Assembly (NCBI RefSeq): GCF_932294415.1
Contig: NC_065536.1
Coordinates: 1,302,001-1,366,000 of the forward strand
Source of the DNA: Quercus robur
Taxonomy: Eukaryota > Streptophyta > Magnoliopsida > Fagales > Fagaceae
DNA length: 64,000 bases
Direction: 5' to 3'
A program made the translations under genes and the position numbers. The notes under the pieces are model-generated. The model was given only the letters and a program-made list of their open reading frames with translations. It did no database searches and had not been told where the DNA came from. This document shows, one piece after another, positions 4,284 through 36,614 of this stretch; within the stretch, counting starts at the first letter, position 1; each line of letters starts with the position of its first letter.

Positions 4284-5385
4284 TGTAAAGTTGAATTTTA
4301 TCAATCATCTTATTGGCTTTATTTCGTGTCAAATTTGCTTACATTTTAGCAATTAGTAATCTTGTATTTAGGTGGGAATCATGTAAGGGTAGTAAGTGAG
4401 AGAGTGTGAAGAAATGTTCAAGATTGTGCAAGGATGCAGAGACTCGCAGCTGGACTCGCGGGTGACTCGCGACTAGCAAACCGCCAAAGTTGGCACGCGT
4501 GTGGAGCATACAGGGGAGCTGAAGAGTCATGCTAGCTGTTGCATTACAGGACAAAAGTCCCAAGCTGGCCAGGTCGTTAGCTCGCGGCTTGAACTCGCGA
4601 CTCAGCCCAATCGTGAGGCCAAGTCGCCAGACCGCCCTGTTTGGGAAAAACTGACTTTTCACATTCCTTCTCACCCGACTATATATAGACCCTTATACCC
4701 ATGATATTCAAAGAGCTTCTAGAGAGAATTTTGAGAGAGAAACCTTAGAGAAAAATAAGATTGATTCATCCACAATCTTCACATAGAGACTCTTTTAATT
4801 CCTCTATTCTCTTCCTCTCCATTGTCAAATCCTTGAGAGGTTCTTAGCCAAACCCTTTTTCTCACCATACCCATATCTGTGAGAAGGCTTTTTGGTGCTT
4901 TGGGAAGCAGTTAGGAAGGGACCAATTTCATATTGGTTGACGCTATGGTCAAGTAGCAGAATCTGGTAAGCTAAAGAAGAAATAGGTTCGGCGTAACCTC
5001 GTTGGAGTAGGAGCTTGGAGGGCTTAGGTACATTGGGTAGATTAGGCTTGAAGGGTCATATGATGTTCATGTATCCCAACTACATTCTTTAGTAGATTAT
5101 TTATCGCTTGGAGGGCGGCGAAGAGGTTTTATGCCGAGGGCCACGGTTTCCTCTTCGATAACACATTGTTATGTTGTCCTTGTATTTGCATCTCTCTTCC
5201 CTTAATCTTTGCCATTTAATTTCTGTTGTGGATGTGATTTTATTTGATTTAGATTTTTTATCAATTTTGCATTAAGTTTATGTTCATATTCTGCATATTA
5301 ATTGTTTGATATAAAGCTCGAATTGGTAATTTGTTAATTGGGGGTCTAAATGTTTATAGTGTTTTATACACTAATTGAACTTTCA
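4284..5385 (+). repeat. 5' LTR
   Basis: The 1102-bp terminal repeat begins TGTAAAGTTG and ends CTTTCA. It aligns along its whole length with 9692-10760. It contains a TATA box (4680-4687) and a GC-richer block at about 4435-4640 with repeated CTCGCG/TCGCGA words. A stretch at about 4710-4765 (agagagaattttgagagaga) is missing or reduced in the 3' LTR. Confidence 0.9.
4680..4687 (+). promoter_or_regulatory. TATA box of the 5' LTR promoter
   Basis: TATATATA followed by GACCC lies in the middle of the LTR, at the same relative place as 10088-10095 in the 3' LTR. The retrotransposon transcript would be expected to start about 30 bases downstream. Confidence 0.6.
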
Positions 5386-5387
5386 AT

Positions 5388-5399
5388 TGGTATCAGAGT
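5388..5399 (+). other. Primer binding site (initiator tRNA-Met type)
   Basis: TGGTATCAGAGT begins two bases after the end of the 5' LTR. It matches the well-known plant Copia primer site TGGTATCAGAGC, complementary to the 3' end of initiator tRNA-Met, with one change at the last base. Confidence 0.85.
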
Positions 5400-5461
5400 G
5401 AGTACACCTGTTGTGGTTTAAATACCTAAGTTTGATCCTTGACCCCTTGTGTTTATTTGCC

Positions 5462-6496
5462 ATGGATAGTGCTTTGTATGCCTCTTTGTATGATTTGGTT
5501 GGTGATGAATGTAACATGCCATGTGTTTGTGAAAATGCCTCTATGAGTGATAATTCTCATGATTGTGATGCTATGTTACATGAATATTTGGATGTTGTTG
5601 ATATTCCTAACATCAAACTCTTGAAGAAAAACGTTAAGAAGTTCAATAAGGATTTGAGCAAGTTATTTTGTGAAAATGATGATTTGATTGCTATGCTAAA
5701 TGAAACAAACAAATTGGTTGAAAAATATAAAATACTTGCTGAAAATTCTCTTGAAAAGCTGAAAGAGTTTGAATGTTTGAATATGGACTTGGATGCTAAA
5801 CTTGTTTTGTCTAACAAACTTGTAGATGAGCTAAAATGTGAAAATGAATCTCTTAAGATACATGCCAAATATTTGATTGCTGAACCTATTGCTAAAAAGG
5901 ATGATAATATATGTTGCAATCATATTGTGGTACCCAATTTCATGCCTATTGTGGGTTCTACCTCTAAGGACAAATCGGTGTACATTCCTCCACATAAAAG
6001 AAATCAAAAGGTAGAGAGAAAAGCTATTAAGTCAAAGCCTCTGTTTAGGTCTCAACTTAAGGCTTTGAATGGATCTAAGTTTGTTCCAACTTGCCACCAT
6101 TGTGGTGTAATTGGTCATATAAGACCTCATTGTCATAAGTTGAAGAGAGAATAAAACCATGTTGCTAGATCCCTTCCCAAAAAGTCTAGTAGACCTAAAC
6201 ACATTATTTGTCATCATTGTGGTGCTTTTGGTCATCTAAGACCTCATTGCTCTAAATTTCATGTTCTTAAAAGAATCAAAAGAAAAGAAAAACTTAAGCT
6301 TCTTGGAAGTTGTGCTAAAAAGAGTAAACCAGTTTTGAGTGAAAATAGCATGTTGTTAAAGAAAATGTTTAATGCTCTTAACTCTTTGACTATGTGCATC
6401 TCCGGTCCTCATTCTTTCAACCCTCGTCTCACTTCTCTTGAGACACTCATTCCAAACCATCGTTCCATTTGGATGAGAAAGGGTTCCTATGATTGA
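5462..6496 (+). pseudogene. gag: gag-like ORF with two CCHC zinc knuckles, broken by one stop
   Basis: From the ATG at 5462 the frame is open for 230 codons to a TAA at 6152-6154. It then continues in the same frame without further stops to the TGA at 6494-6496. The first part is Asn/Lys/Glu-rich and helical (likely coiled coil, residues about 45-150). The end of the first segment has a CX2CX4HX4C knuckle (CHHCGVIGHIRPHC), and a second one (CHHCGAFGHLRPHC) lies just after the stop. Retrotransposon gag proteins package RNA in cytoplasmic particles and bind it with such knuckles. The stop may be a mutation or may limit the product to one knuckle. An upstream in-frame ATG at 5411 is also available, but 5462 fits the start of the low-complexity gag better. 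Confidence 0.75.
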
Positions 6497-9400
6497 GTTT
6501 TTGTTCTTTTAGTCCTTGATCTAATTCTTTCGATCTTTATAAGACTCTTCATGTATTAATTGTTATATCTTTATACATTTTGTGCATCTTGCATTTATTT
6601 GTATGCATTGCTTTTGTTTTCTATCTTACTTTTATGTTTTAGTTTTGTATGAGTAAAAATCCAAAACCACATAAAAAGTGAAAAATTCAAAAAGTTTAAT
6701 CGTATATATTTGAGCACCTTTCACATATGAGTTTAGCCTTATACCTTTGTACAAATGGTTTTGTGCATTTACGAGCTTAGCTTGTTCTTTTTGCACTTAT
6801 ATCTTTGTGGGAAAAATCTTGACATCTTTGTGTGATTGTTGTAAATCAATCTTCAAGCTTGTCATGAATGATTAGTCAATAGTCATGTTAGTTTTGATAC
6901 ATGCATAGACTTGTGCCTATATCTCTTCCCACTCTTTTATTTTTATTACTTAAAGAGTTCAGTAAATGTAAATCTCAAAATGAAAAGAGATAACGAGTTG
7001 CAAAAGCCGTCGCACATACTAGTATTCAACTAGAAAAAAGAGAAAGCGATTTATATGAAAATGTATGATGCCCAAAAAGTCAAAGGCTTGTTCATCAAAT
7101 TGAAATATCAAAAATTTCAGGCATCAATCTCAAAATGAGATATATTGATTCAAAATAATCAAATGTTATGAATTGTAAAGAAACCAAATGAAAAGCTTCA
7201 TCGTATGTAATAATTTTCTTGTGGGAGGTCATATATGTTCATTTCTATAATTGAGATAGACCACTTGACTTAGTACTAGTTGTGTATGACTTGATTGAAT
7301 TGATCATTAAAACTTTACTCTAGACTAAGGACTATTCCACATTTGATACACACACACAACACACATGTCTAATGTTCAATGGATGTTTTATTCATTTGTT
7401 AGATTGTATTTTTCTAAATGTGATGTGTGTGTGTGCTCAACTATATATTGATCAATCCAAAAAGATATTTGATCATTTTATATGTTTTTGGAAGTGATTT
7501 TTATCACTCTTTGTGTTCATGTTTAGTGCTTACTTTGTTTTTCATTATTTAGACATGTTCTGTGTTGAAAAAGAGGTGTCAGAGTTTTTCGCGACTGAGC
7601 TGGCAACTCGCCAGTCGCGAAACCCCAGTCGCGAGTTCATCCAAAAGCTTTGGCGATTCACTCGCGACTTGCGAAAATTTTCACGACTAAACCTGGCGAC
7701 TCGCCCAGTCGCGAAACGCCCAGAAACAGCTTTTTAAAGGGCTTTTCGTGGGAAACCTGTTTTAAACTTCTCCCATCCTCTTTTAAACCCCTCTTTCAAT
7801 ATTTTTACATTAAAACACAATCAATTTGAATGGTTTTTCATTCCATTAACATCTCTAAGGTAATTATAAACTTTTTATTAATTTTAATTCTTAGATTATG
7901 TTTTGGAGAGTTTTGTGCTCTTGGTTGGGATTTTCATCATAGGGGTTGGGAAAACTTAATTTTTTGCCAAATTTTTTTATGGGATTAGTTTCTTTTGATG
8001 ATTTGCTTTGGATATTGGCCCCTTGTGGCAAAAAGAACATGTATTAAGGGTGGATTTCATGATGTTTATGCATTATTTTTCATTATTGTTTATAGTGTGC
8101 ACGCTAGATGTTTGATAAAATTCTTCTTAGGCATTTTCTCACTTGCTTGGACTCCGATGAGTACCAAACTTTGGGGTTTCTCATGTTTCCTCATTAGGAA
8201 CATGTTTGGTTCTTTGGTTGTGTATTTATCACACATTGCCCCACAAGTGTTTTTTCCATGCATTGGTCATGCATTGCACATAGCCACCTCTTGCACATAC
8301 CTTTGCTACCCTTGTCATGCATTGGTCTATAACTTGCTTCTTCATCCTAGCATGTCATGTTTACCTTATACTTTGTAGCATTTTATTTTGTCCTAGGTTA
8401 AAGTTTCATTTTCTCATTCATCTCGCATCCCTCATGCATTATTATCATTGTTCTTACCTTCATCTTTTGCCCTCTTTTCTCCTTAACCCTTTGTCTATTC
8501 CTGACAAAAAAGGGGAGAGTATACTTCAGAGTAGTATACCGGAGAGTTTTGTCATTTCTTTATGACTCTTGTGCACAACCTTAGGGGGAGAAATTCTATT
8601 TCTCGTACACATTTGTATAGGGAGAGATATTCCATAGGAGATATGCATATACCAAGGGGGAGAAGACATTGTGTTAATAAGAAAACTCTGTTCTATTTGT
8701 TTTCTTGTTGACTTTTTGGTGCTTTGAGTTATGTTTTGTTGTTCTTATTACATCATGTTTGTATGTTGGATATGCATACATCCTTAAGCTATTGTGCTTC
8801 ATTGAATGCATGTTCGAATAATTATTTGCTTTGCTATGTGATCATTGTAGTCATTTCTATATAACTGTTTTGGTGTATGTTCAAGTTGCTCACATGTTTC
8901 ACATAATGTTTTTCTTGATCGCAATTTACTTGTTACATTATACTTGTTCGTTTATTACTTGTTTTACCTTGAGGGTCTAATGTGTTTTGTGCAAGTGTTT
9001 TAGGTTATAGGTATTTATGTTCCAAGTTCATTACAGCTCCTATGACTCGTGATAGGGGGAATGATATGATAAGGGAAGTGTTTATTTTTGTACTTTGGGA
9101 TTTGTACCTAATTTGTGCCCATGTTACTTTTGTAAGCTTTTAGGGTTTATTTCCATGTGCTATTTGTAGGCTTTTATGGTTTGTATCATGCTTATGCAAC
9201 CTTTATGTTATGTTGTCTAATACTTTTAGCTAAATGTTATGCATTTTCTTTAAGCATTCTCACTCTTATGCCCTTATAGGATTTTGTTCCTAGATGCATA
9301 TACTTTATGTATTGTGCATTGGTTAAATGTTGGGCATGCAAGTGATTTGCATTGAGCTTATTGGCTTGTATGTCCAGATGTTCATTCCAAGTGTGAATAA

Positions 9401-9679
9401 GCATTGTGGTCACTATTTTATAGTGATTGCCTATTTGGTCAAGCCATGGTTTATTTCTCATTCCATTTTGCTTGATCGTATTGTGCTTGCCTCATATGCA
9501 ATTACAAGTTTTTTTGCATACAATGATGATACTGTGTTGTTATGTTTCAGGAGATTTTTGTTCATATGATTCAAGAGCTTATTAGATTCTAGAGTTAAGT
9601 GTGAGTGAGTTTTGTTCAACTGTTCCCAACTCACATGTTAAGTCTAGAGTTTGTTTTAGGGTTTTGTCACGGAATAGCC
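6497..9679 (+). other. Retrotransposon internal region without pol
   Basis: About 3.2 kb of T-rich sequence contains no reverse transcriptase, integrase or RNase H motif in any frame. The short ORFs (for example 7995-8378) are low-complexity Cys/Leu/Phe-rich and look accidental. A block at about 7588-7710 repeats words such as TCGCGA and CTCGCGAC that also occur in the LTRs. Purine-rich runs of the form AGGGGGAGA occur near 8511, 8583 and 8655, with a shorter one near 9054. Confidence 0.6.
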
Positions 9680-9691
9680 AAAGGGGGAGAT
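9680..9691 (+). other. Polypurine tract
   Basis: AAAGGGGGAGAT lies immediately before the TG of the 3' LTR at 9692. This is the usual position and composition for the primer of plus-strand DNA synthesis. Confidence 0.85.
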
Positions 9692-10760
9692 TGTAAGGTT
9701 GAATTTTATCAACCATCTTGTTGGCTTTATTCCGTACCAAATTTGCTTGTATTTTAGCAATTAGTAACCCTGTATTTTGGTGGGAATCATGTAAGGGTAG
9801 TGAGTGAAAGAATGTGAAGAAATGCTCAAGATTGTACAAGGATGCAGAGACTCGCGGCTGGACTCGCGGGTGACTCGTGACTAGCAAGCCGCCAAAGTTA
9901 GCACACGTGTGGAGCATACAAGGGAGCTGAAGAGTCATGCCAACTGTTGCACTACAGGACAAAAGTCCCAGGCTGGCCAGGCCGTTAGCTCACGGCTTAA
10001 ACTCGCGATTCAGCCCAGTCGTGAGGCCAAGTCACTAGACCACCCTGTTTGGGAAAAACTGACTTTTTACATTCCTTCTCACCCGACTATATATAGACCC
10101 TTATATCCACGATATTCAGAGAGCTGAAAAAAAATATTGATTCATCCACAATCTTCACATAGAGACTCTTCAAATTCTTCCACTCTCTTCCTCTCCATTG
10201 TCAAATCCTTGAGAGGTTCTTAGCCAAACCCTTTTCTCACCATACCCATATCTGTGAGAAGGCTTTTTGGTGTTTTGGGAAGCAGTTAGGAAGGGACTAA
10301 TTTCATATTGGTTGATGCTATGGTCAAGTAGTGGGATCTAGTAAGCTAAAGAAGAAATAGGTTCGGCGTAACCTCATTGGAGTAGGAGCTTGAAGGGCTT
10401 AGGTACATTGGGTAGATTAGGCTTGGAGGGTCTTCTAATGTTCATGTATCCCAACTACATTCTTTAGTGGATTATTTACCACTTGGAGGGCGGCGGAGAG
10501 GTTTTACGCGGAGGGCTTCGGTTTTCTCTTCGATAACACATCGTTGTGTTGTCCTTGTATTTGCATCTCTCTTCCCTTAATCTTTACCATTTAATTTCTG
10601 CTGTTGATGTGGTTTTATTTGGTTTAGATTGTTTATCAATTCTGTATTAAGCTTATGTTCATATTCTGCACATTAATTGTTTGATATTAAGCTTGGATTG
10701 GTAATTTGTTAATTGGGGATCTAAACGTTCATAGTGTTTTATACACTAATTGGACTTTCA
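9692..10760 (+). repeat. 3' LTR
   Basis: The 1069-bp copy of the 5' LTR begins TGTAAGGTTG, ends GGACTTTCA and carries its TATA box at 10088-10095. It is followed by the TSD gtgtt at 10761-10765. Confidence 0.9.
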
Positions 10761-10837
10761 GTGTTAAATTTCAAACTACAAATAGACAACTTAAATTTCA
10801 ATTAAATCACGCGTGGGTAAGTTGTAATTTTCCCAAA

Positions 10838-11034
10838 GAGAGATGCTACGTCTACAACATTTTTACAACAAATCATAGGTGGTTAGTTGTTATTAGTTCA
10901 AATTTGAAACTAACACTAAGATTACTTTTTTGCCCCCAACAATAACAACCAGTAACAACTTGCCACTAAGGATTTGTTGTAACAACTTGCCACTAAGGAT
11001 TTGTTGTAAAAATGTTGTGGACATATCATTTCTC
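10838..11034. mobile_element. Mutator-type MITE, copy 1
   Basis: The 197-bp element has inverted ends GAGAGATGCTACGTCTACAA and, reading inward on the other strand, GAGAAATGATATGTCCACAA. Flanks ttttcccaaa and tttgcccaaa form a degenerate 10-bp duplication. It belongs to the same family as 25590-25768. A 27-bp unit starting 'taacaacttgccactaagg' is tandemly doubled near its right end. It has no coding capacity. Confidence 0.75.
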
Positions 11035-11116
11035 TTTGCCCAAAACTATAAAAACACAAAGGATGTCCAACAGGAATTCAATCAATTCATAACTTTGCTC
11101 TCTAAAGATGGTAAAG

Positions 11117-18665: not shown

Positions 18666-19029
18666 TAAAGAAAAAAAAATGAAATGTCAATTAGTAACTA
18701 TTAATTGGAAAACAAGGAGGTTGTAAGAAGTAAAAATAAAAAAATAAATATGACCCGTATGGAGCTTCAGTGATCAAATTCTTTACAGTGCAATAAAATC
18801 AACTGTTACATTCACATAAAAAATTGAATCAATAATCAATAATTATAGACAATCATAGCAATATATTTAAACTTAAAACTAATCAAACTCTATTTCATAA
18901 CTAAAAGGAGATGATTCTCAAAAAAAAAAAAAAAAAAAAAAAGGAGATATCCTCATGTAATAATAGAAATTACATAAGAAATAAAGTTAGAAAATTTTAA
19001 AATCCCTTTTTTGACATTTCATTTAACTT

Positions 19030-20837: not shown

Positions 20838-21273
20838 GTAAGTTGCTTTTTTTTTTTTTTCTCTTCCCATCCTTTTTTCCCTTCTCTCTTTTACTCTATG
20901 CTATATATTTTCATAAAGAATGTCATTCTTTCTCTAACCATTCATATTATAGTACTCAAAGCACATAACTTGAATCGGAACTATTTGGCTAGAATATTTG
21001 TATCTCAACAATCATTCAAGTAACCTCTATTACAATTAAGGAAAGTTTTACAAAATAGGTAATGTTAAGCATCAAAGTAATATATAAGGTAGATAAAGTA
21101 GATAAAATAGAAAAGCCTCTACTGATTATCAAAAAAAAAAAAAGCCTCTACTATCCAGAGCAACCCTTTGTCAACCCTTTTCGTATCGTTTCGTTTTTTT
21201 TTTTTTTTTTTTTCCACCTTTTCTCCTTTTAGCTGATTTTTTTTTTCGTTAAATGTTGTTTATTTTTTCATAG
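20838..21273 (+). other. Inferred 5' UTR intron of the NLR gene
   Basis: The donor is CTT|GTAAGTTG at 20838 and the acceptor TTTTTTCATAG| at 21271-21273, preceded by long T runs. The acceptor lies 13 bases before the ATG. The upstream exon is GA-rich, like a plant 5' UTR. Transcript data are needed to confirm it. Confidence 0.5.
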
Positions 21274-21286
21274 ACAACCAATAGTG

Positions 21287-23962
21287 ATGGCGGATTCTTT
21301 TATCTCAACCATGAAAGAAATTAAAGAATTTGGTTCGTGCCTGTGGGATGCTGTGTCAAGCCGCAATCTGGAAGAAAATCTGAAGTCCTTAAAAGGTGCT
21401 ATGGAGTCTCTGAAGAAAGTTTATGAAGATGTGAAGCAAAGGGTTGAAATTGAAGGGAAAGTACCACAGATGAAGTGTACAAACGAAGTTTCTGGTTGGC
21501 TTTATGAAGTATTGAAATTGGAAAAAGATGTGAGCAAAACTCTGCAAGATGGTGAGAAAGAAAAGCAGAACAAGTGTCTTAGAGGTTATTGTCAAAAAAA
21601 CTGTTGGTCAAGCTATAATCTCAGAAACACTATAAGCGAACACCTCGATGAAGTAAAGAAACTGAGGACACTAGGTCAATTCAATGCTGTGGTTCAGAAG
21701 TTTCATGTTACAGTTCAGCAGCTACCTATGGTCGAGACCGTTGGTCTAGATGCCCCGCTTCAAGATGTCTGGAGATGTATTGAAGACAGAAAATTGGGAA
21801 TTGTTGGATTATACGGGATTCCGGGCGTTGGAAAGACTACCCTTCTCTACAAAATAAACAATGAGTTCCTCAATGTTAGCCATGATTTTGATGAAGTGAT
21901 TTTGGTTTCAGTATCAAAACTATCAGAAGTAGAATTGGTTCAGAAAAAAATCATGGATAAATTGGACCTCCCTAGAAACATGTGGAGTTCAGATGGTAGG
22001 GAGACAAACGCTCAGAAGATATTTGAAAGGCTACACGGAAAAAAGTTTTTGTTGTTGTTAGATGATATATGGCAGCAACTTGATCTTAATCTTGTCGGGG
22101 TTCCTCTTCCAAATGATCGGAATCAGTCCAAAGTTGTATTTACAACCCATTCCATCGATGTTTGTGGCCTCATGGAAGCTCAACAGAAAATTGAAGTTAA
22201 AAGTTTAGGACCAGAAGAAGCATTGCATTTGTTTCGGATGAAGGTGGGTGAAGCCACTCTAACTTCTGGTCCAGAAATATCCAAACTGGCAAATGATATG
22301 GCTGCAAAATTGAACGGCCTGCCACTAGCACTCGTAACTGTTGGGCGTGCCATGGCCAGTAGGAATGATCAATGTGATTGGGAATCCGGGCTAAATGTAT
22401 TGAGAAACACTCCATCACAGTTCCCACACATGGAAGGCCGCATCCTTAAGAATTTGAAGTTTAGTTATGATAGACTACAGAGTACTACCGATAAGTCTTG
22501 TTTCTTGTATTGTTGTCTATTCCCAGAAAACTCTGACATCAGGAAAGAAAAAATTATTAATTGTTGGATAGGAGAAGGGTTTATAGATGAATTGAATGAA
22601 GATGCAGATATAAATGGTGACTTACGCTCTAAAGGAGAATTAGTTATCAGAAATTTAAAGCGTGCATGTTTATTAGGGAGTGGTGAATCAGAAGAGTTCA
22701 TTAGGATGCATGGTATGCTACGTGACATGGCCTGGCACGAATGCAAAGAGGACATTGTTCTTTTAATTAAAAAAGATAAGGAACAACGTGGATTGAGAAG
22801 TTGGAATAAAGTTAAAAGGATGTCATTGTGGGATCATAGTATACAAGATCTCCTCACAATTGTCCCGCACTCATCCAGAGAAGATCTCCTTGAAAATATC
22901 TCTCCGTTACCCAATCTCCTGACTATGATTTGTATGGATCCTATGTCAACAACATTGCATGCAGGATTCTTTCCATCGATGTCTTCTCTGGGGGTTTTGG
23001 ACTTGTCAAATAGTTCATCCTTACATGATTTACCTAAGGAGATTGGTCATCTAATCAACTTGAAATGCCTTAATCTCTCTAATACAGCTATTCCTGAATT
23101 GCCATCTGCACTTCAAAATTTGAGAAAATTGCGGTGTTTGATACTAAATTGTACAAAAATTCGGAAAATTCCAAGGGCAATGATACCAAACTTTCTGTCC
23201 CTGGAAGTATTTAGTAAGTTGGAAGTTCTTCAGCACTTAGATCCTGGTGGTTTCCTACATCGTGATGATTACCTACAATATTTGTTAAAGGAATTAGAGT
23301 GCTTGCTACACATAAAAGAAATCTGCATTGTCATTCATGAGGCCACTTCCCTGCAAAAGTTATTGGAATCACACAAGTTACTAGGGTGCATAAGAAAGCT
23401 CACACTCGATGAGTGCAATGATCTGCCCACCCTTGAACTATCACCCTCATTGGTGACAAAAATGGAGGATCTTGAATTACGTTATTGTAAAGAGTTACGA
23501 GAGATTTCCCTTGGAACAGGGCAATTCAGAAACCTTAGTAAGGTAGTGATTAAAGGTTGTAACTTGTCAGATGTGGGGTGGCTCATATATGCTCCAAGAC
23601 TTCAAACTCTTGAATTAGTTAATTGTGAATTATTGGGAGAAATAATAGGAGATACACCGGGAGGTGGAGAAATTGAAGAAAATACAAGGATATTCTCAAG
23701 TCTTTTGGTTCTACGTTTGTTTTGCCTACCAAGCCTACAGAGCATATACCGGCATGCCTTGCCCTTTCCTTCCCTGATAAAGATTGAGGTACAAGATTGC
23801 GAACTTTTAACCAAGCTTCCATTTTCCAAGAGTGCAACGAAAACTCTAAAGCTAATTAGCGGAGAGGAAAGCTGGTGGGATAGCTTGAGTTGGGATGATG
23901 AAACCATTAAGGAAGATTTCAGCCCAAAATTTGTTGAAAGAATTGTTCAGAATGCTTGGTAA
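21287..23962 (+). CDS. CC-NB-ARC-LRR disease resistance protein (RPS2/RPS5 type)
   Basis: The protein is 891 residues in a single coding exon, the usual length for this class. The start is the ATG at 21287 (MADSFIST); the open frame extends only one GTG codon further up. Order: N-terminal coiled-coil region (about 1-145), P-loop GIPGVGKTT (about 177-185), kinase 2 KKFLLLLDDIW (252-262), RNBS-B FTTHS (about 285-289), GLPLAL (344-349), RNBS-D CFLYCCLFPE (405-414), MHD-like MHG (474-476), then LRRs from about 560 to the end. Such receptors sense pathogen effectors, or host proteins the effectors modify, and trigger hypersensitive cell death. There is no Gly-Cys acylation signal at the N-terminus. 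Two odd points: His replaces the usual Arg in RNBS-B, and Gly replaces the Asp of MHD. The frame is intact, so it is either a functional divergent receptor or a young pseudogene. Confidence 0.93.
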   Translation: MADSFISTMKEIKEFGSCLWDAVSSRNLEENLKSLKGAMESLKKVYEDVKQRVEIEGKVPQMKCTNEVSGWLYEVLKLEKDVSKTLQDGEKEKQNKCLRGYCQKNCWSSYNLRNTISEHLDEVKKLRTLGQFNAVVQKFHVTVQQLPMVETVGLDAPLQDVWRCIEDRKLGIVGLYGIPGVGKTTLLYKINNEFLNVSHDFDEVILVSVSKLSEVELVQKKIMDKLDLPRNMWSSDGRETNAQKIFERLHGKKFLLLLDDIWQQLDLNLVGVPLPNDRNQSKVVFTTHSIDVCGLMEAQQKIEVKSLGPEEALHLFRMKVGEATLTSGPEISKLANDMAAKLNGLPLALVTVGRAMASRNDQCDWESGLNVLRNTPSQFPHMEGRILKNLKFSYDRLQSTTDKSCFLYCCLFPENSDIRKEKIINCWIGEGFIDELNEDADINGDLRSKGELVIRNLKRACLLGSGESEEFIRMHGMLRDMAWHECKEDIVLLIKKDKEQRGLRSWNKVKRMSLWDHSIQDLLTIVPHSSREDLLENISPLPNLLTMICMDPMSTTLHAGFFPSMSSLGVLDLSNSSSLHDLPKEIGHLINLKCLNLSNTAIPELPSALQNLRKLRCLILNCTKIRKIPRAMIPNFLSLEVFSKLEVLQHLDPGGFLHRDDYLQYLLKELECLLHIKEICIVIHEATSLQKLLESHKLLGCIRKLTLDECNDLPTLELSPSLVTKMEDLELRYCKELREISLGTGQFRNLSKVVIKGCNLSDVGWLIYAPRLQTLELVNCELLGEIIGDTPGGGEIEENTRIFSSLLVLRLFCLPSLQSIYRHALPFPSLIKIEVQDCELLTKLPFSKSATKTLKLISGEESWWDSLSWDDETIKEDFSPKFVERIVQNAW

Positions 23963-24562: not shown

Positions 24563-25503
24563 GGATTTTTTTAGAAAATAACTATAAAATCTAAACAATA
24601 TCATTAGTTAGCAAACGTTTCAAACTATTTTGATTTATAACAATTCGAGTTTGGTGGAGTCGATTTGTGGGTTGTAAAATCGAGTTTAGTATACTCGATT
24701 TCCCTTTTTTGCAGCAGATGACGTGGGGAAACGGCGCACAGAAATCGAGTTAAACAAACTCGATTTCTATGCATACAAACCGAGTCCAATACACTCGGTT
24801 TTTACACATAGAAATCGAGTTCGTTGGACTCGATTTCTGTGTATAAAAAACGAGTCTATTAGACTCGGTTTATATGTACAAAAACCGAGTCTAAAACTCT
24901 CATTCAAAACGACTCCTCTCAAAAAACTCAGTCCTCCCACACTAACATACTAACAGTCCTCTCAAAAAAAACTCTTTAGTTCAAAAAACTCTCACATTCC
25001 CTCCCACACTCACAGTGCGTCTCAGTCTCTCTCTCACTCTCACTCCATTCCATCTCAGTCTCAGCTCCGCTCTCTGATTCGGCTCCGTCGCCGTTCCGTT
25101 GCACTCATTCCCTCTCTTCAGCTCCGTCGCCGTTCCGTCGCACTCATTCCCTCTGATTCTTCAGTCAGGAACGAGTGGTTCTGCAGATAAGGAAACCGAG
25201 TTCAAAGGAGTCGGTTTCTAAGCCTGAAAAACAAGTTCATTGAACTCGGTTTTCAAGCCTGGAAATCGAGTTCTACGCTGTCGGTTTCCAAGCCTGGAAA
25301 CCGAGTTCATTAAACTCGTTTTTCAGGCTTAGAAACCGACAGAGTTGAACTCGATTTCTGCCGACGTGGCCACTCCGCCAACCTCAGCTAAAAACCCAGA
25401 AATCGACCCTGCTTAACTCGAATTGCTAGAAACCAAAATAGTTTAAAACGTTTCCTAACTAATGATATTGTTAGGGTTTTGTTGTTATTTTCTAAAAAAT
25501 CCC
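24563..25503. mobile_element. Mutator-like element packed with palindromes
   Basis: The 941-bp element has exact 9-bp duplications TAAGAATGT (24554-24562 and 25504-25512). Its inverted ends are about 88 bp long (GGATTTTTTTAGAAAATAAC left; GGGATTTTTTAGAAAATAAC reading in from the right). A 9-bp TSD with long inverted ends marks the Mutator superfamily. The interior has at least ten short palindromes built on AAATCGAGTT/AACTCGATTT and the AAACCGAGT variant, around a pyrimidine-rich core (about 24900-25160). It has no transposase coding; the 76-codon ORF at 24723 is a by-product of the palindromes. Confidence 0.85.
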
Positions 25504-25589
25504 TAAGAATGTACTATTTTTTAATTACTGAGTCGCACCAATCACATTATCGCCACCTTAATTTGTAAACAAAACTCTTTTATTAAAAT

Positions 25590-25768
25590 GAGAAGTGCTG
25601 CATCCACAATATTTTCAAAATATTTTTACAACAAATCATAAGTGGCAAATTATTGTTAGTTCTAATTTAAATTCACAACTTAAATTACTTTTTTACCCAT
25701 CTATAACTACCAATAACAACGTACCACACAAGATTTGCTGTGAAAATATTGTAGACATAGCATTTCTC
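25590..25768. mobile_element. Mutator-type MITE, copy 2
   Basis: The 179-bp element has exact 9-bp duplications TATTAAAAT (25581-25589, 25769-25777). Its inverted ends are GAGAAGTGCTGCATCCACAA and, from the right, GAGAAATGCTATGTCTACAA. It is in the same family as 10838-11034 and has no coding. Confidence 0.85.
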
Positions 25769-25777
25769 TATTAAAAT

Positions 25778-34752: not shown

Positions 34753-35067
34753 CTAGTTTCAGACCCACACATTATGCGTGATAATTTTTTAGGTAAAATA
34801 TTATTTTAGTCCCTAAATTTTGTAAATAGTTTTTTTTTTTTAATTAGTTTTATCATATTTTTTTAATGGTCTCATCTATATTGTTTCTTACCATTATCAT
34901 ATATTTATTGGTTGATAAATTGCATAACATAAATATTAAATCAGAGGAAGACCTATTCATTAGATTTTTCAATTTTATTTCTTATGTAATTTCTATTATT
35001 ATTGGAGAAGATCTCATTTTTGTTATGATAGGAAATATAATTTCCTTAGTTAGAGTTTGATTAGTTT

Positions 35068-35357
35068 TGTGGGGACAATTTTTGCTTCAAAGGCCAAGGG
35101 CTAGACCATGTTGGAACCTTAGGCAATTTTTGTTGTCCCAGATTGGAAAGAAAGCCTCCCTCTTTGCACCTTATAAGGCATGAACCAATGGTGATAGAGT
35201 ACCACTAGTTTGGTTACTAGTGGTACTCTATCACCATTGGTTCATGCCTTATAACGTGCAAAGAGGGAGGCTTTCTTTCCAATGTGGGACAACAAAAATT
35301 GCCTAAGGTTCCAACATGGTCTAGCCCTTGGCCTTTGAAGCAAAAATTGTCCCCACA
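35068..35357. mobile_element. Near-perfect foldback hairpin, 142-bp arms
   Basis: The left arm (35068-35209) and right arm (35216-35357) are reverse complements with only two mismatches that I can find, separated by a 6-base loop ttggtt. The ends are TGTGGGGAC and GTCCCCACA, flanked by 5-bp direct repeats agttt (35063-35067, 35358-35362). The TSD shows it was inserted as a unit. RNA from either strand would fold into a long double strand, a natural Dicer substrate. It has no coding. Confidence 0.9.
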
Positions 35358-36614
35358 AGTTTTAAGTTTAAATTTTGTATTATTGATTTAATTAAGTGAA
35401 TGTAATGGTTGATTTTATTGCACGGTAAAGTTTTTAATATCCTCTATTTGATTTTTGCTATTAGTTGTTAGAATCATTAGGTCTTCAAATCGTTCATTTG
35501 AAAAAAATTGAAACTCTTCTTATTGGATGATCATGCATACTTCCCAGAAATCGAATTGACGTTTGATTTCACTTCTTTTTTTCTTCTTTCATTTATTCTT
35601 TATTACTTTGTATGTTCCCTTGATTGCTATAATTTTTATGGTTATTAATAAGAAATAGATATCATAGATGTCTTAAATAGTTATAGATGTAATTACATTG
35701 GTGGTATGTAAAGGGTTTTTATGTTTTTTGTTTTCATTTTTTTTTCTTTTGAATTTTCAAGGAAATATAAAAGGCATTTCTCTAGTTTGGTCTCGATCAA
35801 TTAAGGCACTCATAATATCTTAACTGAAGTAATAATAAGCTTTAATTTTTTATTTAATGTATGAAGTGGTTTGGTTAGTGGTATGTCAAAGTTAAAAATA
35901 AAAAATAAAAAATAAAAATCCAAGGAAATGTAAAAGGTCTTTTTTTGAAAAATAAAATTGGTGACTTTTTGAAGAGTAGAAATATGATTTTTTTTTTAAT
36001 TACCTTGTTCATAGAATTTATTATTTAGTTATAAACATTTAAATTAAAGTAGATGTATATATAAATGCAAAATTATATGTAAAGTTACAATTGCACAAGA
36101 CAAATATGTATAGATAATATTTGTTGTTTTTGATTATTCATGAATCATTATTTCATTGTTTTCAAATAAATATCTAAATTAAAGTTTTTTTTAATAGAAA
36201 AATCTATATTAAAATAAATGAATATATAAAAGTAAAACTATATGAAAAGTTAAAACTATCCAAGATGAATGTTTAACCACTGGTAGATGTGTATTTTTTT
36301 TTTTTTTTCTAAGGCTAAAAGTATACTTGATTACTTTAGCTGGAACTATATAACTATGCAAATATTATTACGAGTGGTTCCACCATTTGCAAATTATCAA
36401 GTCTGGTGGCCTTACAGAATAGGCATTTCATTTTGCAAAAATTTTTATATGAAGTCTTCTTTTGTGATAACTTTTTTTTTTCAATTTTTTCTTTTTGCCG
36501 AAACAACTTAAGAATATTAAAATTTAAGTTACCACATGTGGTAGCTGTAAAACATGATAGTGATATAAATAATAGAAAGGTTTAAACAGTTAAAAAGCAT
36601 TTTTAGTAGATTGT

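Follow-up and report, generated by a model that had tools for sequence, protein, structure and literature searches.

The window, that is the whole 64,000-nucleotide stretch of DNA which was analysed, carries at 35068-35357 a compact element composed almost entirely of two inverted arms. Its parts, together with the site of the window at which it is absent, are as follows.

35068..35357, no strand assigned: foldback element, 290 bp, TGTGGGG...CCCCACA (sequence; terminus backed by relatives)
35068..35209, plus strand: left arm, 142 bp (arm alignment)
35216..35357, minus strand: right arm, 142 bp, reverse complement of the left arm (arm alignment)
35210..35215, plus strand: loop TTGGTT, 6 bases (sequence and fold)
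35063..35067, plus strand: left target-site duplication AGTTT
35358..35362, plus strand: right target-site duplication AGTTT
35141, plus strand: arm mismatch, G in the left arm and C in the right; left arm derived
35170, plus strand: arm mismatch, C in the left arm and G in the right; left arm ancestral, right arm derived
35171..35178, plus strand: TATA-like TTATAAGG in the left arm, directed toward the tip (sequence only)
35247..35254, minus strand: mirror TATA-like motif in the right arm, directed toward the tip (likewise)
18865..18892, minus strand: core of the unoccupied paralogous site, TAGAGTTTGATTAGTTTTAAGTTTAAAT (alignment of the inverted duplicate with the hairpin flanks)

One terminus, TGTGGGGACAATTTTTGC, stands in inverted orientation at either end of the element, whose ends read TGTGGGGACAA..TTGTCCCCACA. 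The arms account for 284 of the 290 bp, so that long terminal inverted repeats fill most of the element, and the arm alignment showed that they differ only at 35141 and 35170; the arm length becomes 143 bp if the outermost T/A pair is included. The coordinates, the 142-bp arms, the two mismatches and the 6-base loop of the original prediction were all confirmed by this alignment, and the TG/CA ends and the 5-bp AGTTT duplication which it had described are correct to the base. The RNA fold of positions 35060-35365 (306 nt) reached -275.2 kcal/mol with a z score of -36.5, and none of 100 dinucleotide shuffles folded as well. The longest exact stem in the window with a loop of at most 20 nt was 39 nt, compared with 9-10 nt in five mononucleotide shuffles, and among the 37 inverted pairs with arms no more than 1500 bases apart, of which the best 25 were listed, the hairpin was the longest. 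Other inverted matches in the window are longer, but they are distant and far more diverged (e.g., 351 bp at 73%). No convincing further copy of the hairpin was found within the window, and no Rfam model matched it at gathering scores. The TTATAAGG motif in both arms, which we take to be a promoter-like TATA motif of putative function, was given little weight.

The surrounding sequence is plant-like, as judged by its matches to NB-ARC-LRR and PPR proteins and by an LTR retrotransposon, and it holds several other repeats. The LTR retrotransposon occupies 4284-10760 and has LTRs of about 1.1 kb that are 89% identical; TTGGTATCAGAGTGAG follows its left LTR, a purine-rich tract precedes its right LTR, and both flanks read GTGTT. 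An open reading frame behind its left LTR is, as we presume, CCHC zinc-knuckle-like, and a Pfam search of this frame returned no match. A different MITE-like inverted repeat family (TACAACAAATCATA...) is present in two copies at 10834-11038 and 25583-25775, which are about 79% alike over 126 columns, one of them lying just outside the LTR retrotransposon. Two arrays of near-palindromic units of about 35/70 bp (ACTCGGTTT.../AAACCGAGT...) were observed at 24737-24893 and 25191-25358, and both sit inside a larger inverted repeat with arms at 24567-24673 and 25393-25499.

In a self-comparison of the window, the stretch at 18.77-19.22 kb aligned in inverted orientation to that at 34.84-35.44 kb, as part of an old inverted duplication that survives as scattered collinear blocks of 68-83% identity between about 15.8-19.2 kb and 34.8-39.9 kb. 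When the 290 bp and one AGTTT were deleted, the hairpin flanks matched the duplicate without interruption over the 28 bases TAGAGTTTGATTAGTTTTAAGTTTAAAT spanning the junction, and the flank alignment score rose from 203.5 with the element retained to 284.5 with the element removed; in the window as it stands this 28-mer occurs once only, at 18865-18892 on the minus strand. The hairpin thus arrived as one unit with a 5-bp target-site duplication, as had been claimed, and since the duplicate lacks the element and matches across the junction, its insertion is, most simply, younger than the duplication. The same inverted duplication flanks an open NB-ARC-LRR reading frame of 909 codons (21233-23962; NB-ARC E 6.6e-56).

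The two arm differences could be polarised with related sequences found elsewhere. At 35141 relatives P0001, P0002 and P0003 have the base of the right arm, which makes the left arm derived; at 35170 P0001, and with less certainty P0003, share the base of the left arm, and the derived state lies in the right arm. This makes one private substitution per arm and suggests that the arms were probably identical when the element landed. Two differences per 142 bp correspond to K = 0.014, and thus to a loose figure of about 1-5 million years if 1.5-7e-9 substitutions per site per year are assumed. The predicted recent origin therefore holds relative to the surroundings, in view of two arm differences against 68-83% identity in the older flank blocks; correction between the arms may also account for their similarity. 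Both differences are C/G transversions and not the C-to-T changes expected from methylated DNA, a pattern which, with two events only, may be due to chance. With an unoccupied duplicate in the same window and polarised arm changes, this copy is unusually well dated relative to its surroundings.

Relatives were sought by comparing translated arm frames with a protein collection in which spurious open reading frames over repeats remain; they are thus known only as translated frames, and complete hairpins at their sites would be an extrapolation. The frame running from the outer end to the tip matched P0001 (E 8e-19) and P0002 (1.7e-6), in both of which the homology starts at the TGT of the element, and the frame running from the loop outward matched P0003 (1e-11), which runs from the tip of the left arm across the loop and on to the right end. 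P0003 as a query gave 27 matches, itself among them, bringing the total to 29 open reading frame clusters with 73 member sequences (tables summed by hand), all on ENA contigs. P0008 and P0009 likewise span the hairpin tip, and P0006 and P0029 span it with a deletion. Six of the 29 matched the window copy directly at E < 1e-3 (tblastn), and the remainder were tied in via P0003 by a tip block, a middle block and a terminal block; with motif patterns composed after sight of the sequences, these blocks were counted in 26, 27 and 26 of the 29, respectively, and at the protein level the right-end motif was present in 26 and the left-end motif in eight. Two versions of the arm's outer half occur, one in the window and P0003 and the other in the majority, with the tip and the terminus common to both. 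These shared termini and tips place the hairpin, as judged from the translated relatives, in a dispersed repeat family, which agrees with the earlier expectation that it came from one.

The relatives vary in arrangement. In six of the 29 a left TGTGGGG end (terminus TGTGGGGACAATTTTTGCC, deduced from protein) is followed by the right arm, and these look like TIR elements with unequal arms. Eight of the 29 (P0004-P0007, P0010, P0011, P0024 and P0025) carry at least two directly oriented arm units (full or partial) or ends, spaced 49-50 codons (147-150 nt) apart in P0007, P0010, P0024 and P0025, 47 codons in P0006, 73 codons in P0005 and irregularly in P0004, while P0011 has no shared motif spacing. 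Five others (P0013, P0015, P0021, P0023 and P0026) have the peptide MKNIISNNF upstream of the arm, and their right flanks fall in four groups; the stretch may belong to an internal region that is conserved in a longer member of the family. Two further sets of matches were taken as chance, namely a match of P0014 with its flank to 10855-10944 (E 0.009) and four prokaryote contigs from a 19-mer scan of genome contigs, which matched over 19-21 bases only. Pattern scans of viral contigs for the hairpin gave no matches.

The relatives also bear on where the element ends. The right-end motif gave 30 matches in the 29 proteins, followed by N (11), T (8), K (4), S (4) or I (3), so that the next codon can begin with A in all 30 (serine only if AGY) and its second base varies. 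In seven of the 30 the motif leads into another arm unit or the tip, and these were set aside; the other 23 were collapsed by hand to 19 distinct flanks, with A in seven, C in five, G in four and T in three when serine is read as AGY; for two of the 19, P0005 (first unit) and P0008, an internal junction is an alternative. The tally leaves out P0001, P0002, P0003, P0004, P0012 and the second unit of P0011; ends read by hand in other frames gave A/G after CACA in P0003, C/T in P0004 and A/G in the second unit of P0011. Because the base after CACA is variable among the relatives, the element appears to end in ..CACA, and the comparison favours a 5-bp duplication, AGTTT, over a 3-bp one, GTT. Six relatives show both ends, of which P0016 and P0017 have too little left flank and four could be tested for a duplication (at least four known left-flank bases). 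Among lengths of 2-10 bp P0019 is compatible with 5 alone, provided that its serine codon is AGY, whereas P0020, P0022 and P0027 fit no length of 3-10 bp, two of them fitting 2. These three may be recombinant or nested copies, and three of four testable relatives without such a duplication count against a simple story.

Alternatively, the hairpin could be an ordinary MITE from one of the standard plant TIR superfamilies, its arms 143 bp long and its duplication the 3-bp GTT. This is formally possible, since the T and the A that lie just outside the TG..CA ends can pair, but the base following ..CACA differs among the relatives, which puts the A after CACA in the window outside the element, and we rejected this reading as improbable. 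Tc1/Mariner elements duplicate 2 bp, PIF/Harbinger and CACTA elements 3 bp, hAT elements 8 bp and Mutator elements about 9 bp; the window has 5 bp, and the 3-bp alternative is disfavoured. Near-perfect arms could also come from a single event that duplicated one LTR or a gene piece in inverted order, as in a newborn MIRNA-like locus. Against this stand the target-site duplication with its unoccupied site, the related copies spanning the tip elsewhere, and the fact that the two arm frames searched matched only spurious open reading frames of the same repeat; the birth of a MIRNA from a gene was rejected, and a one-off duplication, which the relatives contradict, is very improbable. Perfect palindromes are furthermore a known assembly artefact, formed when a read is joined to its own reverse complement, but folding over would not yield a 5-bp duplication matching an unoccupied site, tip-spanning relatives on other contigs or one private change in each arm. 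The artefact was rejected on these three grounds and is the least credible explanation of all.

A stronger competitor is a miniature LTR retrotransposon (TRIM) with two LTR units head to head, integrated by an LTR-retrotransposon integrase. The TG..CA ends and the 5-bp duplication agree with it, as TRIMs and other LTR retrotransposons have duplications of 4-6 bp, and the direct arm units 147-150 nt apart in four relatives resemble tandemly arrayed TRIMs. The arm also contains GTCCCACATTGG and TTATAAGG, both of which are common in plant LTR promoters. In addition, a maize TRIM pair in inverted order with the duplication CTTCA appears in the excerpted text of PMC4717578. On the other hand, the window holds an inverted pair only, direct arm units being seen in eight of the 29 relatives, and in place of a PBS and PPT it has a 6-nt loop. 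The spacer between direct units in the relatives, known only as protein, would be about 21 nt if the unit is TGG..ACA (by hand), which leaves no room for both a PBS and a PPT, and no obvious PBS can be made out from its residues. The relatives with both ends visible moreover carry the same inverted terminus at each. We consider an inverted TRIM possible but rather unlikely, and prefer to read the hairpin as, probably, a non-autonomous foldback element (long-TIR, MITE-like) of a dispersed family with integrase-type termini.

To our knowledge, these ends with a 5-bp duplication fit none of the standard plant TIR superfamilies. In the foldback reading, the inverted terminus TGTGGGGACAATTTTTGC at both ends would be recognised in trans by a DDE-type enzyme, which would cut the target with a 5-bp stagger and join the TG..CA ends in the manner of retroviral-type integrases. 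An integrase of this type is suggested by the TG..CA ends, the TGTNR pattern and the 5-bp duplication, and a TIR element by an inverted terminus exceeding the short inverted repeats of LTRs, given as roughly 7 bp in the excerpted text of PMC3601003. The mobilising enzyme may be an LTR-retrotransposon integrase or a Ginger-like transposase; the analysis, which covered the window and collections outside the host genome, found no transposase partner. Any transcript would fold into a long double-stranded RNA that could feed Dicer-like enzymes. The suggestion that the hairpin, as a young locus, might silence the LTR family from which it came gained no support, no parent LTR element being found with the same coverage, and there is no evidence of a host function.

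More speculatively, and with considerable doubt, the family might represent a plant case in which a retroviral-type integrase moves DNA that has no LTR pair but an identical end, inverted, on either side, either as a plant counterpart of Ginger or as a route from LTR retrotransposons to hairpin MITEs, by which those retrotransposons would give rise to siRNA sources against themselves. A near-perfect hairpin family with integrase-type ends would be a natural test case for the origin of foldback elements from LTR-type machinery and for the birth of new inverted-repeat small-RNA loci. A literature search, in which motif strings are seldom printed and to which repeat libraries did not belong, met no published description of the family among the papers listed; matches to the motif strings were mostly animal or microbial work, presumably primer matches, with none on this repeat among the matches listed. 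We regard it mostly as a new family of a familiar kind, whose odd feature is its retrovirus-like ends.

Foldback elements are mostly Mutator-related with target-site duplications of about 9 bp, compared with 5 bp for the hairpin. Plant foldback elements and hairpin MITEs that give siRNAs or MIRNA-like hairpins share with it long inverted arms, small size and dispersal, and in rice and Solanaceae hairpin MITEs are small-RNA sources with 24-nt reads as the most abundant class, according to the excerpted text of PMC3086885. The original prediction considered LTR-like ends unusual for a foldback element, which is fair, but precedents exist in the inverted maize TRIM (PMC4717578) and in Ginger (PMC2836005), as far as the excerpts describe them. 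Ginger1 and Ginger2 (TDD-4/5) likewise have TGTNR termini, long TIRs (40-270 bp and 50-180 bp, respectively) and 4-5 bp duplications, and the TGTGG..CCACA ends of the hairpin fit their pattern TGTNR..YNACA; the hosts named in the excerpt are animals, Dictyostelium and a fungal vestige, and the elements encode a transposase (PMC2836005), whereas no transposase was found for the hairpin, and the Ginger target preferences reported there do not include AGTTT. The inverted tandemly arrayed TRIM of maize, Zma-SMART, similarly has a 5-bp duplication, small size, inverted units and tandem-unit relatives, maize TRIMs also forming tandem arrays (PMC4717578, excerpted text); compared by description only, the hairpin differs in its 6-nt spacer and in having no direct LTR pair, PBS or PPT. 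The SMART element FRetro129 (292 bp) resembles it in TGT..ACA ends, 5-bp duplication and size, but as described in the excerpt of PMC3281118 it is built of direct 85-bp repeats around a 122-bp internal region, while the arms of the hairpin are inverted.
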